NCBI GenBank assembly: GCA_041545745.1 | Contig: CP168152.1 | Coordinates: 3,718,001-3,782,000 of the forward strand | Source of the DNA: Stenotrophomonas indicatrix | Lineage (GTDB): Bacteria; Pseudomonadota; Gammaproteobacteria; Xanthomonadales; Xanthomonadaceae | DNA: 64,000 bases | Direction of reading: 5' to 3' | Part shown: in pieces, positions 573-37,859 of the stretch | Numbering within the stretch: the stretch's first letter is position 1 | Layout of the letters: the number at the start of each line of letters is the position of its first letter | Program-made: the position numbers and the translations under genes | The notes under the pieces: generated by a model | Told to the model about the DNA's origin: nothing | Databases searched by the model: none | Seen by the model: only the letters and a program-made list of their open reading frames with translations

Positions 573-715
573 CGTTGCCGTCTTCAGATCGGCAACGAAG
601 TGTGGACCGGGAAGATGACCGTTGCAAGTATGGGAGTTCGGGTTCGGCAGGGCGGCGCCCTGCACCCTCAGAATCGACGGCAACGGCAACGGCAGAAGCT
701 GGCATTCCGTGGGAT

Positions 716-817
716 GGCGGGGTGGGTCCGGTGGCGGGGGGCGCTGCAAGTACGTCCATGTAAGCTCGGTCGCGCCATCCATGGCGCTCACGCCCCCGCA
801 ACCGGACCCACCCCGCC
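716..817 (+). repeat. Large three-way-junction palindrome, copy 1 of 4
   Basis: Outer arms 716-740 and 793-817 pair over 25 positions with one G/A mismatch (733 against 800). The interior 741-792 is exactly 52 bases. Inside it, 772-787 is a perfect hairpin (GCGCCAT, CC loop, ATGGCGC) and 751-762 can form a short TAC/GTA hairpin. The left flank is GGGAT and the right flank continues TTCGACAGTT. Three more copies in the window share the 52-base interior length, the CATCCATG centre and the GACAGTT flank but have different arm sequences. This copy lies between the divergent nucleoside hydrolase and the gene at 1277. Confidence 0.85.
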
Positions 818-845
818 TTCGACAGTTGTCCACTGCTCTTGGTGG

Positions 846-15217: not shown

Positions 15218-16549
15218 ATGATCCAGCAAGACCCCGGCGTCCTGTATCCCGACCACCTGGCCGTGCTGTGCCGACGCGCCGAGCAGGCGCTGGCACGCGG
15301 CGGCTTCGACCATCTGGTGGTGCCCAGCGGCACCCTGCACTACCAGGTCTTCGACGACCGTGACTATCCGTATGCGGTCAACCCGCAGTTCAAGGCCTGG
15401 CTGCCGCTGACCCGGGTGCCCAACAGCTGGATCGTGTTCACCCCGGGCAAGCGCCCGGCGGTGATCTTCCACCAGCCGTTCGACTACTGGCATGTAGTGC
15501 CGGATGCACCGAGCGGCTGGTGGGTCGAACACTTCGACATCCACATCATCCGCAAGCCCGAAGAAGCGCTGGCACTGCTACCGTCCGACCCGGCGCGCTG
15601 CGCGATCCTGGGCGAACCGCAGAGCGCGCTGGGCGCCTACGTGCCCAACAATCCGGCGTCGGTGGTGAACTACCTGGAATGGCATCGCGGCAGCAAGACG
15701 CCGTATGAAATCGCACTGATGCGCCAGGCGCAGGTGCTGGGCGTGCGCGGCCATCGCGCGGCCGAAGCGGCGTTCCGCAACGGCGCCGACGAGTTCAGCA
15801 TCCACATGGCGTACTGCCAGGCCGTGGGCCAGGACGCCACCGAGCTGCCGTACGGCAACATCGTGGCCTTGAACGAGCATGCGGCGGTGCTGCACTACAC
15901 CGAACTGGGCCGCAAGGCGCCGCAGCCGCTGCGCAGCTTCCTGATCGATGCCGGCGCCAGCGCGCACGGCTATGCCAGCGACATCACCCGCACCTACGCC
16001 GCCGCCGGCCATGACGAGTTCGCGGCGATGATCGAAGCCGTTGATGCCGCCCAGCAGCAGATGTGCGCGGCCGTGCGCCCGGGCTTCGACTACAAGCAGC
16101 TGCACGTAGATGCGCACCTGTCGCTGATGGGCGTGCTGAAAGACTTCGGCGTGATCAAGATATCGCCGCAGACCGCGCTGGAAACCGGCGTCAGCGCCGC
16201 GTTCTTCCCGCACGGCATCGGTCACCTGATCGGCCTGCAGGTGCATGACGTGGCCGGTTTCGCTGCCAGCGACGAAGGCGGCCGCATCGAGCGCCCGGTC
16301 GGCCACCCGTACCTGCGCCTGACCCGCGTACTGGAACCGGGCATGGTGGTGACGATCGAGCCGGGCCTGTACTTCATCGACATGCTGTTGAACGAAGTGA
16401 AGGCTGCCGGTCATGGCGATGCGATCAACTGGGAGCGCGTGGATTTCTTCCGCCCGTACGGCGGCATCCGCATCGAAGACGAAGTGCTGTGCACTGATGG
16501 CGAGGCGGACAACCTGACGCGGCCGGTATTTGCGGCGGCCAACGGCTGA
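15218..16549 (+). CDS. pepQ: Xaa-Pro dipeptidase (prolidase)
   Basis: 443 residues, normal for bacterial PepQ, which cleaves Xaa-Pro dipeptides and, as a side reaction, some organophosphates. N-terminal domain to about 160, then a pita-bread metallopeptidase domain. All five dinuclear metal ligands are visible: D in FLIDAGA near 245, D in YASDITRT near 257, H in FFPHGIGHLIG near 330, E in TIEPGLYF near 385 and E in GIRIEDEV near 424. The segment DYWHVVP is typical of prolidases rather than aminopeptidase P. The start at 15218 is the first ATG after the PilZ gene (75-base gap). It converges on pepP, a related metallopeptidase, across a gap carrying two large palindromes. Confidence 0.95.
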   Translation: MIQQDPGVLYPDHLAVLCRRAEQALARGGFDHLVVPSGTLHYQVFDDRDYPYAVNPQFKAWLPLTRVPNSWIVFTPGKRPAVIFHQPFDYWHVVPDAPSGWWVEHFDIHIIRKPEEALALLPSDPARCAILGEPQSALGAYVPNNPASVVNYLEWHRGSKTPYEIALMRQAQVLGVRGHRAAEAAFRNGADEFSIHMAYCQAVGQDATELPYGNIVALNEHAAVLHYTELGRKAPQPLRSFLIDAGASAHGYASDITRTYAAAGHDEFAAMIEAVDAAQQQMCAAVRPGFDYKQLHVDAHLSLMGVLKDFGVIKISPQTALETGVSAAFFPHGIGHLIGLQVHDVAGFAASDEGGRIERPVGHPYLRLTRVLEPGMVVTIEPGLYFIDMLLNEVKAAGHGDAINWERVDFFRPYGGIRIEDEVLCTDGEADNLTRPVFAAANG

Positions 16550-16588
16550 GCCCCTCGTGGTTGGTCGCTCGGAGCAATAGCCGCGCTT

Positions 16589-16692
16589 GGCGGGGCGGGG
16601 TGGGTTCGCGGGGGACGCCGTGAATCCATCCCTGGAGGCTTGGCCGCCGCATCCATGCGGCGGACACCCCCGCGAACCCAACCCGCCCCACC
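16589..16692 (+). repeat. Large three-way-junction palindrome, copy 2 of 4
   Basis: Outer arms 16589-16614 and 16667-16692 are complementary at 24 of 26 positions. The interior 16615-16666 is again 52 bases. It contains a 9-bp hairpin CCGCCGCAT/ATGCGGCGG at 16644-16663 with a CC loop and a small CCA/TGG hairpin near 16626-16635. The right flank reads TCTGACAGTTTCC. Compared with copy 1 the arms have different bases but the same architecture. It points toward copy 3 within the convergent pepQ/pepP gap. Confidence 0.85.
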
Positions 16693-16850
16693 TCTGACAG
16701 TTTCCTGCGGGCGGCCAGCCACGGAAGAAAGAAAGAAAAGCAAAAGCGGGTCGCTTGCTACGCTCGCTCTGTGTCGACCAAGGTCGACACCTACCAACAG
16801 CCGCGCATCCCAACAACCGCCGTTACCAACAGCCACGTGAAACTGTCGAA
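16693..16850. other. Spacer between two facing palindromes
   Basis: 158 bases separating copies 2 and 3 of the large palindrome. It contains a purine-rich tract (GAAAGAAAGAAAAG near 16727-16741), the GTGTCGACC/GGTCGACAC hairpin at 16771-16790, and the reversed GACAGTT flank of copy 3 near 16841-16849. I see no gene, and no start codon with ribosome-binding site. Confidence 0.6.
16771..16790 (-). repeat. GTCGACC/GGTCGAC hairpin
   Basis: Arms GTGTCGACC and GGTCGACAC with an AA loop, the reverse-oriented version of the hairpins at 846-865 and 22368-22387. As at those sites it lies on the GACAGTT side of a large palindrome (copy 3, reversed), so the two seem to travel together. Confidence 0.75.
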
Positions 16851-16952
16851 GGCGGGGTACTGTGGGTTTGCGGGGTGTGAGCCGCATGGATGCGGCGACC
16901 AAGCCTACAAGGACGTACTTGCGGCGGCCCCGCAAACCCACAGTACCCCGCC
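16851..16952 (-). repeat. Large three-way-junction palindrome, copy 3 of 4 (reversed)
   Basis: Outer arms 16851-16875 and 16928-16952 are perfectly complementary over 25 bp. The interior 16876-16927 is 52 bases. Read on the minus strand it contains a TAC/GTA hairpin and GCCGCAT/ATGCGGC with a CC loop, and the downstream flank is TTCGACAGTTTC. Its interior closely resembles copy 1 (AAGTACGTCC shared), yet the outer arms are different, with compensating changes on both sides. Confidence 0.88.
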
Positions 16953-17045
16953 ATCCCGCAGGAAGCCCGCTTCGGCTCTTGCTTCGGTGGTTGCTGTTGC
17001 TGTGGCCTCTGCAGGTTCAGGGCTGCAAGCCATGCCGAAAACCCT

Positions 17046-18374
17046 TCACCCCGCCATCAACGCTTCGATCTCGTCGGCGCTGCGCGCCAGGCCTTCGGTC
17101 AACACCCGATGCCCGTCGTCGGTGATCAGCACGTCATCTTCGGTACGGATGCCGATGCCACGCCAGCGCGGTTCCACTGTCGTGTCGTCCACGCCGATGT
17201 ACAGCCCCGGCTCGATGGTGAAGGCCATGCCCGGCTCCAGCAGACGCGAATCGCCGGCCAGGCGGTAATCGCCTACGTCGTGCACATCCAGCCCGATCCA
17301 GTGCCCCGTCTTGTGCCGGTAGAAACGCTGGTACAAGCCTTCGGTGAGATTCTTTTCCAGCGTGCCCTTCAACAGGCCCAGTTGCAGCAACCCCTCGGTA
17401 AGAGTCTGCACCGCCGCCAGATGGCCCATTTCGTACGCCACGCCCGGTTTGGCCTGGGCCAGTGCCGCCGCCTGTGCCGCCCCCACCAGATCATGCAGCG
17501 CGCGCTGCTCGGCGCTGAAACGACCGTTGACCGGGAACGTGCGGGTGATGTCACTGGCATAGCCGCGATACTCGGCACCGGCATCGATCAACACCAGTTC
17601 ACCGTCGCGCGAACGCGCGTTGTTGTCGCGGTAATGCAGGATGCAGGCGTTGCGGCCGGCACCGACGATGCTGCAGTACGCAGGCACCGCGTCGTTGGCG
17701 CGGAACACCCGCTCCAGCTCGGCCTGCAGTTCGTACTCGTGGATGCCGGCCTTCGCGGCCTGCATGGCCGCACGATGCGCCAGCACGCTGATATCGGCCG
17801 CGCGCTGCATCAACGCCACCTCGGCACCGGACTTGAACAACCGCTGCTCGTGCAGCAGATGGCCCAGTTCCAGGAACTCATGCGGTGGCTGCGCACCATG
17901 GCGCACCTGCGAACGTACGCGGTTCACCCAGCCGATCAGCTTCAGGTCGAAATCCGCGTCGCGGCCGAAGTGGTAGTACACCCGCGACCGCCCTTCCAGC
18001 AGGCCCGGCAGGATGTCGTCCAGATCGGTGATCGGGTACGCATCGTCCATCGCGAACTGCGCCACTGCGCCGTCCTGGCCGGCGCGCCCTCCATCCCAGG
18101 CTTCACGCTCGGGATCACGCTCGCGACAGAACAGGATGGCTTCACCGTGGCGGCGACCGGGAATCAGCACAAGCACCGCTTCCGGCTCCGGGAAGCCGGT
18201 CAGGTACTGGAAATCCGAATCCTGCCGGTACGGATAATGGGTATCGAGGCTTCGCACCTTCTCCGATGCCGCCGGCAGCACCAGGATCGCGTCTTCGCCC
18301 GCCATGTCCATCAGCTGCCGACGGCGACGCTTGTACTCGCCGGCAGCGATGCCGGTGCGCTGCTTGATATCCAT
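17046..18374 (-). CDS. pepP: Xaa-Pro aminopeptidase P
   Basis: 442 residues, matching E. coli PepP (about 440), which removes any N-terminal residue preceding proline. The N-terminal AMP_N domain opens IAAGEYKRRRRQLM and contains SEKVRSLDTHYPYRQDSDF near 40-60. The metallopeptidase domain has all five manganese ligands: LIDAGAE, YASDITRT, HKTGHWIGLDVHD, TIEPGLYI and IRTEDDV. Start ATG at 18374 shares one base with the TGA stop of the UPF0149 gene, as in the conserved ygfB-pepP pair of gammaproteobacteria, where ubiquinone genes often follow; here the converging pepQ follows instead. It is paralogous to pepQ across the palindrome-rich gap but differs clearly in the N-terminal domain. Confidence 0.96.
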   Translation of the reverse strand: MDIKQRTGIAAGEYKRRRRQLMDMAGEDAILVLPAASEKVRSLDTHYPYRQDSDFQYLTGFPEPEAVLVLIPGRRHGEAILFCRERDPEREAWDGGRAGQDGAVAQFAMDDAYPITDLDDILPGLLEGRSRVYYHFGRDADFDLKLIGWVNRVRSQVRHGAQPPHEFLELGHLLHEQRLFKSGAEVALMQRAADISVLAHRAAMQAAKAGIHEYELQAELERVFRANDAVPAYCSIVGAGRNACILHYRDNNARSRDGELVLIDAGAEYRGYASDITRTFPVNGRFSAEQRALHDLVGAAQAAALAQAKPGVAYEMGHLAAVQTLTEGLLQLGLLKGTLEKNLTEGLYQRFYRHKTGHWIGLDVHDVGDYRLAGDSRLLEPGMAFTIEPGLYIGVDDTTVEPRWRGIGIRTEDDVLITDDGHRVLTEGLARSADEIEALMAG

Positions 18375-19681: not shown

Positions 19682-19689
19682 GGCCACGC

Positions 19690-19875
19690 GTTCTCTGCGG
19701 TACTCGACGGCATGTGCAAACATTCGCCTTGTCCCTTAAGAACGACACCGGGAGCGCGACAGCGCCGGGAGTGCAGGTCCGCCTTGCAGCGGGAAGCCCG
19801 ATGGTTCTCCAACGTTCCCACTTGAGCCCGCGGGTTCAAGGTCGTTTCGCATGCATCGACATTGCGGAGAATGCA
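19690..19875 (+). ncRNA. ssrS: 6S RNA
   Basis: About 185 bases between zapA and fau, the standard place for ssrS. 6S RNA mimics an open promoter and sequesters sigma-70 RNA polymerase in stationary phase. The 5' end (TTCTCTGCGGTACTCG, from 19691) and the 3' end (CGACATTGCGGAGAAT, 19857-19872) form the closing stem. The middle has the expected large asymmetric bubble, flanked by CCTTGTCCCTTAAG on the 5' side and CACTTGAGCCCGCGGGTTCAAGG on the 3' side, with a GC hairpin between (CACCGGGAGCG... region). A perfect -10 box precedes it and an intrinsic terminator follows. Exact ends are estimated. Confidence 0.85.
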
Positions 19876-21719: not shown

Positions 21720-22166
21720 ATGTCATTGCTGCGCTCACTGCTGATGCTCCCGCTGCTGGCCCTGACCGGCTGCGCCACCGATGCCGCCCGCCACTGGGTG
21801 GAACTGGGCGGCGCACGCTATGACGTTGAACTGGCCACCAACGATGAAACCCGTGCGCGTGGGTTGATGTTCCGCGACCAGATGGCCGAGGACCACGGCA
21901 TGCTGTTCGTGCATGACCGCGAGGAAATGCAGGCGTACTGGATGAAGAACACCAAGATCGCGCTGGACATCCTGTACTTCGACAGCGAGCGGCGGCTGGT
22001 GAGCCAGCAGCGCGACGTGCCGCCGTGCTCGGCCGGCGACATGTGCCCGCCCTACCCCAGCGGCGGTCCGGCGCGCTTCGTGCTGGAGCTCAATGCCGGC
22101 CAAGCGGAGAAGCTCAAGCTGAAGGATGGTACCGAGCTGACCTTCGGCCCGGGCATCGAGAAGTAG
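21720..22166 (+). CDS. DUF192 family lipoprotein
   Basis: 148 residues starting MSLLRSLLMLPLLALTGCA; the LALTGC lipobox predicts cleavage before Cys19 and lipid anchoring at the outer membrane or periplasm. The mature part is a DUF192 domain, with the characteristic TNDETRARGLMFRDQMAEDH, GMLFVHD and YWMKNTKIALDILYFD segments. DUF192 proteins are small beta-barrels of unknown function. It is the last gene of the fau-EVE-rpiA series. The ATG at 21720 is preceded by GAAGGA at a good distance. Its TAG stop is embedded in a GTAG that heads a GC-rich palindrome (22163-22193), so the repeat element supplies the end of the gene. Confidence 0.9.
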   Translation: MSLLRSLLMLPLLALTGCATDAARHWVELGGARYDVELATNDETRARGLMFRDQMAEDHGMLFVHDREEMQAYWMKNTKIALDILYFDSERRLVSQQRDVPPCSAGDMCPPYPSGGPARFVLELNAGQAEKLKLKDGTELTFGPGIEK

Positions 22167-22193: not shown

Positions 22194-22235
22194 ACCGAAT
22201 CAACATCAAATGCAACATCTGGGCGACCGAGGGAT

Positions 22236-22339
22236 GGCGGGGCGGTGTGGGCTTGCAGGACACGCCGTAAACCCATCCCTGGGGGCTCGTAGGCGCCATC
22301 CATGGCGCCTGCGGTCCTGCAAGCCCACACCGCCCCACC
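22236..22339 (+). repeat. Large three-way-junction palindrome, copy 4 of 4
   Basis: Outer arms 22236-22261 and 22314-22339 pair at 25 of 26 positions. The interior 22262-22313 is 52 bases. It contains CCCA/TGGG at about 22272-22283 and AGGCGCCAT/ATGGCGCCT at 22291-22310 with a CC loop. The left flank is GGGAT and the right flank CTGACAGTTTCC, as in the other copies. The arm sequence (GGCGGTGTGGGCTTGCAGG region) is unique to this copy. Confidence 0.88.
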
Positions 22340-22367
22340 CCTGACAGTTTCCCGCTGCTGTTGGTGG

Positions 22368-22411: not shown

Positions 22412-22483
22412 GGGAAATCGGTGGGATGAGAAATTCACGCCACACTGCTTGAAACCGCCCACGATTGCCACCAGTCTGTGGGC

Positions 22484-23329
22484 ATGCAGGACCGGATCAC
22501 ACTCCCCGACTGGGATGCACTGGCAGCCTTCGACGACGAGGCGCTGCCACTGCTGCCGACCGCGCTGCTGATCGCGCGCGATGAATATCCCGATCTGCAG
22601 CCGTCGACCTACGATGCGCTGGTGCAGAGCCACGTCGAGCACCTGCGCGCCGAGGTGGACAGCATCGAGCACAGCCCGCTGAAGATGGCCGCCATCAACC
22701 GGCATCTGTTCGATGAGCTGGGTTACAGCGGCGACCACCAGGAGTACTACGACCCGCGCAACAGCTACCTCAACCAGGTGTTCGAGCGCCGTCTGGGCAA
22801 TCCGATATCGCTGGCGCTGGTGCAGATGGAAGTGGCGCGACGGCTGGGCATTCCGCTGGACGGCGTGTCATTTCCCGGTCATTTCCTGGTGCGCCTGCCG
22901 GTCGACGATGGCGTGCTGGTGATGGACCCGTTCAACGGTGGCCGCCCGCTGGACGTGGACGAACTGCGCGAGCGCGCCAAGTCGCACCTGGGCGGGCAGA
23001 TGCCCGACGACCAGGTACTCGCGCAGATCCTCGATCCTGCACCGAGCCGCGCGATCCTGATCCGCATGCTGCGCAATCTGCATGGCGTGTATGCCGAGGC
23101 CAGCGAGTGGGATCGTGCCGCGCGCAGTGCCGACCGCCTGCTCAAGCTCGCCCCCGAACAGGACGATGCGCTGCGTGACCGCGGCCTGGCCTATCTGCAG
23201 CTGGACTACCTGGCCGGGGCCCGCACCGACCTGGGCCTGTACCTGAAGCGCAACCCCGAGGCCAGCGACGCGCAATGGCTGCGCGAGAAACTGATCGACC
23301 TCGGCGGGCCCGCACCACGGCTGCATTGA
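22484..23329 (+). CDS. SirB1-type transglutaminase-like/TPR protein
   Basis: 281 residues from the ATG at 22484; a GTG two codons earlier is also possible and neither has a strong ribosome-binding site. The protein matches the SirB1 N-terminal domain (transglutaminase-like superfamily): YYDPRNSYLNQVFERRLGNP near 85, GIPLDGVSFPGHFLVR near 120 and DPFNGGRPLD near 145. The C-terminal part (about 195-265) holds tetratricopeptide-like helices, YAEASEWDRAARSADRLLKL and RDRGLAYLQLDYLAGARTDL. Homologues sit near peptide-release and heme genes in E. coli (sirB1/ychA) but no enzymatic activity is known. It is preceded by 317 bases of repeats, so it is probably transcribed separately from the DUF192 gene. 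Confidence 0.87.
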   Translation: MQDRITLPDWDALAAFDDEALPLLPTALLIARDEYPDLQPSTYDALVQSHVEHLRAEVDSIEHSPLKMAAINRHLFDELGYSGDHQEYYDPRNSYLNQVFERRLGNPISLALVQMEVARRLGIPLDGVSFPGHFLVRLPVDDGVLVMDPFNGGRPLDVDELRERAKSHLGGQMPDDQVLAQILDPAPSRAILIRMLRNLHGVYAEASEWDRAARSADRLLKLAPEQDDALRDRGLAYLQLDYLAGARTDLGLYLKRNPEASDAQWLREKLIDLGGPAPRLH

Positions 23330-37639: not shown

Positions 37640-37823
37640 CCCGATAGCGATGTTCTGTGAACCCGGACACAATTCAGGATGCCAGCCGCAGTACCCGAAC
37701 CGGTCCTACTCCCCAAGAGGCCATCCCCAAGGGAGCTCATGCTGTGGGGGCCCTGAGCAAGCCCTTTGCTGGCACCTATGAAACGAAACAGGCCTGATCC
37801 TCGCGGATCAGGCCTGTTTTTTT
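37640..37823 (+). ncRNA. Candidate small RNA ending at an orphan terminator
   Basis: No plus-strand gene exists here, yet a strong plus-strand intrinsic terminator ends at 37823. Upstream, 37700-37765 holds short hairpins with cytosine-rich loops: GGTC/GGCC around CTCCCCAAGA (37701-37722), TCCC/GGGA around CAA (37724-37734) and GCTCA/TGAGC (37735-37758). C-rich loops with a terminal rho-independent hairpin recall xanthomonad small RNAs such as sX13, but I cannot compare sequences here. The 5' end is a guess; no convincing promoter was found. Confidence 0.4.
37788..37823. terminator. Strong intrinsic terminator
   Basis: A perfect 13-bp stem (ACAGGCCTGATCC 37788-37800, GGATCAGGCCTGT 37805-37817) with a TCGC loop, followed on the plus strand by TTTTTT (to 37823). 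On the minus strand it is followed by TTCGTTTC, so it may also end the adk transcript, whose stop is 36 bases away. Confidence 0.9.
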
Positions 37824-37859
37824 GCGCCTGTCATGGCCGGCATCGACCGGCCAAGCGTG

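Follow-up and report, generated by a model that had tools for sequence, protein, structure and literature searches.

Dispersed palindromes of Stenotrophomonas indicatrix resemble the TwoAYGGAY RNA and may act as CsrA/RsmA-binding modules

INTRODUCTION

Palindromes of about 105 nt that recur in the genome of Stenotrophomonas indicatrix probably constitute a CsrA/RsmA-binding RNA module, one that has spread as an interspersed repeat and been shuffled by recombination. We hold this reading, which comes from sequence comparison, with moderate confidence; it is the simplest account of the loops of the palindromes, the Rfam clan to which they lead, the strand that they favour and their spread. The palindromes were noticed in a 64-kb stretch of contig CP168152.1, termed the window, meaning the whole stretch that was analysed. 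In what follows, the TCC strand is the one on which they were originally described, and the AYGGAY strand is its complement, the proposed RNA strand.

RESULTS

Palindromes of the window

The window holds, as originally predicted, four inverted repeats of common architecture with 52 nt between the arms in each. Arm length is ∼26 bp across all four copies, the arms of copies 1 and 3 having one base fewer each than those of copies 2 and 4. Both hairpins of the original prediction are present, the central CATCCATG one and a smaller one, but the latter is better drawn as 3 bp around a 6-nt loop, with the stem TAC/GTA in copies 1 and 3, TCC/GGA in copy 2 and CCC/GGG in copy 4. Folding of each copy lies 6.0 to 9.9 SD below that of 200 shuffles on either strand. 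The copies and the genes beside them are as follows (window coordinates).

709..829, AYGGAY strand (-): copy 1, R1 model span; arms 713-740 and 793-820, 93% complementary
751..762 (-): small hairpin of copy 1; loop 754-759, ATGGAC on the AYGGAY strand
777..782 (-): central hexaloop of copy 1, ATGGAT
15218..16549 (+): gene, presumably aminopeptidase-P-like; stop 39 nt before copy 2
16582..16704 (-): copy 2, R1 model span; arms 16589-16614 and 16667-16692, 92% complementary; loops 16628-16633 and 16651-16656
16705..16838 (no strand): spacer inside the tail-in pair of copies 2 and 3
16839..16959, AYGGAY strand (+): copy 3, inverted partner of copy 2; arms 16848-16875 and 16928-16955, 96% complementary
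16886-16891 and 16909-16914 (+): loops of copy 3, ATGGAT and AAGGAC
17046..18374 (-): gene converging on copy 3, which we take to be a second aminopeptidase-P-like gene; anchor for orthologous-site comparison
21720..22166 (+): gene, presumably DUF192-like; stop 69 nt before copy 4
22229..22351 (-): copy 4, R1 model span; arms 22236-22261 and 22314-22339, 96% complementary; loops 22275-22280 and 22298-22303
22478..23329 (+): gene after copy 4, which we take to be SirB1-like; anchor for orthologous-site comparison

The window also has an Rfam match to C4 antisense RNA (67.4 bits, 1140-1230, ∼310 nt after copy 1), as well as matches over the Rfam cut-off to 6S RNA (19689-19874) and the sX11 sRNA (37679-37827).

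Family size and relation to TwoAYGGAY

The genome (4.66 Mb) contains 169 matches to the core pattern (84 + 85) at up to 3 mismatches and none to a reversed-pattern control, so the core pattern is not a product of chance. A covariance model made from the four window copies found at least 149 matches in the same genome (150 candidates scored; one place was matched on both strands).

The original description knew of no name for the element. Copies do match a named family, TwoAYGGAY (Rfam RF01731), on the opposite strand. A search of the genome with RF01731 returned at least 17 matches (150 of 305 candidates scored), and the 14 that fall on the palindrome family are always on the AYGGAY strand. 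The top copy scores 43.6 bits against a curated cut-off of 43, and the other 13 elements are under the cut-off, including copy 4 (34.1 bits, (-) strand); copies 1-3 were not among the matches listed. One of 14 control genomes was also matched, under the cut-off. At the gathering threshold, an Rfam scan of the window matched no palindrome copy, and a scan of copies 2 and 3 at E of 10 or less gave mostly microRNA-type matches and no RF01731.

The plan is shared. The RF01731 alignment has a long outer stem and then two hairpins with AUGGAU-type loops, and the palindromes likewise place two AYGGAY-loop hairpins inside an outer stem on one strand, although G or A is common as the second base of the small loop, so that the literal Y is not always kept. 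They differ from TwoAYGGAY as known in that this base can be any of four, in that most copies are under the Rfam cut-off and in their number, with more than 100 copies per genome, many of them in tail-in pairs behind genes. TwoAYGGAY belongs to Rfam clan CL00106, and E. coli CsrB leads to the same clan.

Weinberg et al. (2010) reported TwoAYGGAY from gammaproteobacteria among others and judged it probably an RNA and probably not cis-regulatory (PMC2864571); its current Rfam type is Cis-reg. CsrA binding was proposed for it by Gardner and Eldai (2014) (PMC4333381). The portions of the TwoAYGGAY literature available to us, these two papers included, contain neither a description of it as an interspersed repeat nor a placement in Stenotrophomonas; those of PMC12306157 and PMC9788540 do not mention the palindrome repeat, and none of the papers listed on CsrA with repeats or decoys describes such a repeat in its title or the opening of its abstract.

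Helices and loops

Substitutions are paired in all three helices, as had been claimed from four copies, over about 150 copies of the own genome and in other genera. The best 150 of 157 own-genome matches were aligned and four identical rows removed, leaving 146 distinct copies in which 97.3% of cells are paired and 31 of 34 pairs have changed on both sides. Their covariation score is 0.483, a value reached by none of 500 shuffles, and slid partners give no more than 0.078; many arms are unlike between copies, yet complementary. Loci of other genera (8 antisense rows included) are 92.4% paired with a covariation score of 0.753, and the further pair types in that alignment (98) were not above shuffles, 148 of 500 of which reached 98. 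A consensus fold of the AYGGAY strand from 16 sequences (the four window copies and 12 from six named genera and four MAGs) is a three-way junction of 40 pairs, 32 of them changed on both sides. This strand can form a variable outer stem of ∼24-30 bp that bears two A-N-GGA hexaloop hairpins, and the GGA motifs of the two loops are 23 nt apart, start to start.

Loops were counted in 148 full copies, 9 of the 157 core copies having arms shorter than 18 nt and being left out. The first base is A in 148/148 small and central loops alike, and GGA is present in 146/148 small and 148/148 central loops. The main free position is N, together with the choice of C or T at the end of the small loop (C or T in 146/148). 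At N the small loop has G in 69, T in 58, A in 17 and C in 4 copies; the central loop is ATGGAT in 144, AAGGAT in 3 and ACGGAT in 1, all four variants differing at N. Both loops of all 16 sequences of the consensus fold read A-N-GGA, and 14 of the 16 small loops end in C or T. Judged by its letters, the AYGGAY strand thus carries in its hairpin loops the A-N-GGA-N of putative CsrA/RsmA sites. The small hairpin with the TAC/GTA stem reads UACANGGACGUA, close to RUACARGGAUGU, the CsrA SELEX consensus. CsrA has a preferred spacing of its two motifs. It is a homodimer that takes one motif per half (PMC4333381).

Some copies have a nested, hairpin-rich insert of ∼75 nt inside a palindrome loop. One type lies in the small loop (L066:1873-2069, L106:1879-2075, L074:1243-1442, L178:1234-1428) and a second in the central loop (L093:1879-2078); both types occur in G073 and L181. 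Insertion sequences inside loops were considered and dropped, the inserts being only about 75 nt long.

Strand asymmetry of mismatches

Helix mismatches are unequal between the strands. In the own genome 92 read as G.U on the AYGGAY strand (A.C on the TCC strand) against 10 that are G.U on the TCC strand; without a recurrent pair (columns 10/200) the counts are 65 and 10, or 48 and 10 as distinct events. The AYGGAY strand is favoured also in other genera (98 versus 12; 56 rows, 8 antisense rows left out) and at orthologous sites within the genus (42 versus 8; 50 rows, 5 of 55 having been removed as identical). The bias is partly linked to replication: if the origin lies near the contig start, as we assumed, the ratio is 50:4 in the 76 copies whose TCC strand is head-on, and it is 15:6 in the 70 co-directional copies (p = 0.08 alone; replichore border assumed). 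Corrected for replication orientation and with the recurrent pair left out, the strand ratio is 5.6 (2.8-11.2) raw and 4.8 (2.4-9.6) for distinct events.

Pure arm copying is hard to square with this bias, which points to a folded AYGGAY strand; RNA and single-stranded DNA would both fit. Two causes had been offered for the paired substitutions, selection on the folded form and a mechanism that copies one arm onto the other. The former gains support, since a G.U bias towards the AYGGAY strand is better explained by a folded single strand, in the simplest case RNA, than by arm-to-arm copying.

Genomic position and pairing

We classed 148 copies against genes from our own codon-based calling; no called gene contains a copy. 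Behind a gene co-oriented with the TCC strand lie 96 of them, with a stop-to-arm distance of 30-148 nt in 93 of the 96, and the other 52 have no such gene ahead. Seen from the AYGGAY strand, a same-sense gene stands on the 5′ side in 103/148 copies, so read-through could transcribe this strand, and in 96/148 the strand is antisense to a gene ending on its 3′ side.

Multi-copy clusters in the own genome are nearly uniform: 50 of 51 are plus-then-minus pairs with the tails facing in, and one is plus-plus-minus. For the 47 tail-in pairs that have gene calls, the neighbouring genes are convergent in 19 cases, tandem in 27 and divergent in one, so convergent genes by themselves do not account for the pairs. 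Avoidance of like partners within pairs had no clear effect (mean interior identity 0.769 versus 0.787 shuffled; near-identical partners 1 versus 3.75 expected, P 0.11; whole element, P 0.29). Other genera have tail-in pairs too, as well as a tail-out pair in L203. Six directly repeated matches, ∼230 bp apart, form a tandem array in another genus (G281:C1:94411-95646).

Upstream regions and spacers have recurring GC-rich hairpins, AACGGC-like runs and GTAG-type hairpins; the GTAG-type repeats beside some copies are presumably SMAG/GTAG REPs. Behind many of the stops shown, the region leading to the copy has a GC-rich hairpin and then variable six-base runs (AACGGC, AACAGC, AACGTC).

History within the genus

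The core (up to 2 mismatches) is present in 72 of 91 genomes of the genus, at 0 to 180 copies each. Since copy number is so patchy, with no core match in 19/91 genomes, the module is not essential.

Sites were compared across 30 genomes. The copy-4 site has the element in seven, one of them in another version, and one further genome has what resembles a deletion remnant; an intact copy is absent from 23/30. At the copy-2/3 site, where the flanks are still recognisable, the left element is intact in 23/30 genomes with 13 different interiors, and the right core is found in 27/30 with 19 interiors, two having altered arms and one an insert. Arms, small hairpin and central hairpin switch as separate blocks, and, classed by small hairpin, central hairpin and inner arm together, the 148 copies of the own genome fall into 101 combinations. 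Mean pairwise identity has no simple drop inside the palindrome relative to the flanks at the copy-2 site (interior and arms 0.79-0.83, 5′ flank 0.77, 3′ flank 0.87) or the copy-3 site (interior and arms 0.80-0.82, flanks 0.75 and 0.72), so it is from the type switches, and not from mean identity, that we infer replacement of versions. This site history, as read from the alignments, fits short-tract recombination between copies with the helices staying paired. The suggested copying mechanism is thus upheld in so far as copies are also rewritten by recombination, seen as version replacement at orthologous sites; plain arm-to-arm copying is disfavoured by the strand asymmetry.

Spread and co-occurrence with CsrA

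Among the matches listed from an exact scan, the core occurs in Stenotrophomonas, Xanthomonas, Marinobacter, Pseudidiomarina, Shewanella, Haliea, Saccharospirillum and Vreelandella, and also in a Cellvibrio MAG, several other gammaproteobacterial MAGs and one MAG labelled Nitratireductor. Of 299 genomes sampled evenly over the phylum, 19 match (at most 11 candidates scored per genome, stricter filters), all in the own class. CsrA is encoded by 19/19 element-bearing genomes (own genome included) and by 161/280 others (Fisher 4.9e-5), an association confounded by phylogeny; within the class the comparison is 19/67 versus 0/20 CsrA-negative class genomes among those listed (0.0048). One element-bearing genome, G210, has nine CsrA family matches.

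DISCUSSION

Proposed function

Under the proposed mechanism, each copy would bind one CsrA/RsmA dimer across both loops, and the outer stem would close the junction and protect the RNA. Intergenic copies may be transcribed by read-through or by antisense transcription, and would then serve either as decoys that titrate RsmA or as 3′ UTR segments bound by it. Selection would keep the helices paired and the GGA loops fixed, while recombination (gene conversion or cassette exchange, to go by the site comparisons) would rewrite the copies.

More tentatively, and as a possibility only, the copies could together be a distributed RsmA reservoir: a decoy RNA turned interspersed repeat, scattered through a genome in more than 100 copies, many of which form tail-in pairs behind genes, rewritten by recombination between copies and ranging in number from 0 to 180 among species of one genus. 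Such a reservoir might take the place of sRNAs of the CsrB/RsmY type, which homology searches have not turned up in Xanthomonas. The repeat may be either a useful decoy network or a selfish element borrowing the shape of a decoy.

Alternative explanations

The main rival is REP-like mobile DNA, in which the AYGGAY strand folds as single-stranded DNA, its loops are recognised as DNA, the tail-in pairs are the transposing form and movement is in trans, by a Y1/RAYT-like or other transposase. The patchy copy number in the genus, presence and absence at the orthologous copy-4 site, the replacement of versions at a fixed site and the prevalence of tail-in pairs (50/51 own-genome clusters, and pairs in other genera) would all suit it, and G.T wobble would favour one strand in DNA as well. 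The tyrosine transposase that might have been linked to the element did not, however, appear: around 88 loci (33 of other genera and 55 of the own genome), no gene family recurs near more than five, apart from ORFs over the repeats themselves, which by coordinates make up the two largest shared neighbour groups. The number of Y1 transposases does track copy number over the 91 genomes (rho 0.62), but Y1 genes are found in 88 of these, including 16 of the 19 without a core match, and no correlation is seen when the 48 genomes with at least 40 copies are compared by themselves (rho 0.14, p 0.33). We dropped the Y1/RAYT link, the correlation being confounded by SMAG repeats. The tail-out pair and the direct tandem array are arrangements other than the supposed transposing form, and the loop signature is that of a CsrA RNA site, for which we know of no DNA counterpart. 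We rate mobile DNA as rather unlikely, if still a serious contender.

Two further explanations seem to us improbable, and to a like degree. One makes the palindrome a 3′-end element of the upstream gene on the TCC strand, a terminator or RNase barrier like the REPs of E. coli. Position speaks for it, in the 96/148 copies that follow a co-oriented gene, 93 of them within 30-148 nt of the stop, and in the 19/47 pairs between convergent genes; yet 52/148 copies are not so placed, those of the window have no long T-run after them, the strand bias favours the AYGGAY strand instead, and the fixed GGA loops are left unexplained. The other assumes no function and has the arms stay complementary mainly through hairpin template switching or conversion at the DNA level. 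Version swaps between species at one site, the module mosaic of 101 combinations in 148 copies and the many unlike but complementary arms all agree with this, but it predicts no G.U strand preference, whereas a bias is seen (part of which mutational strand bias explains), and the loops are the most conserved part, common to distant genera.

Relation to known regulators and repeats

With the reading as a CsrA/RsmA-binding RNA, the palindromes can be named, assigned to a strand and tied to a candidate protein partner, and an RNA family without an assigned function becomes a testable system with natural replicates. If it is true, titration of a global regulator could evolve via repeat copy number. 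The decoys CsrB/RsmB and RsmX/Y/Z come from one or a few dedicated sRNA genes, and each of these RNAs contains many GGA motifs. The palindromes share with them the GGA in hairpin loops, and the clan of CsrB is that of TwoAYGGAY; they differ in having two loops per copy and very many copies. One study of sequenced Xanthomonas genomes found no significant homologue of CsrB, CsrC or RsmV to RsmZ (PMC7694677), and the palindromes may bear on how RsmA is counteracted in Xanthomonadaceae. The same study describes RsmU (sRX061) of Xanthomonas campestris, an RsmA-sequestering RNA with two isoforms bearing 3-4 GGA motifs and no Rfam homologue (PMC7694677); RsmU is a single sRNA of a related genus, whereas the palindromes are many and have an Rfam match.

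The SMAG/GTAG REPs of Stenotrophomonas are likewise numerous extragenic palindromes, often dimers and mostly downstream of coding regions (PMC3733652). These REPs measure 20-40 bp and have a terminal tag, whereas the elements described here are ∼105-nt three-way junctions without a GTAG tag at the stem-loop foot: their ends are the variable arms, and the GTAG-type hairpins are separate neighbours. The 3′ flank is GACAG or GACAA in 125/148 copies, and the GACAG flank sometimes runs into a small palindrome, GACAGAT...ATCTGTC, for example in G000:C1 after 611994 and after 1732641.
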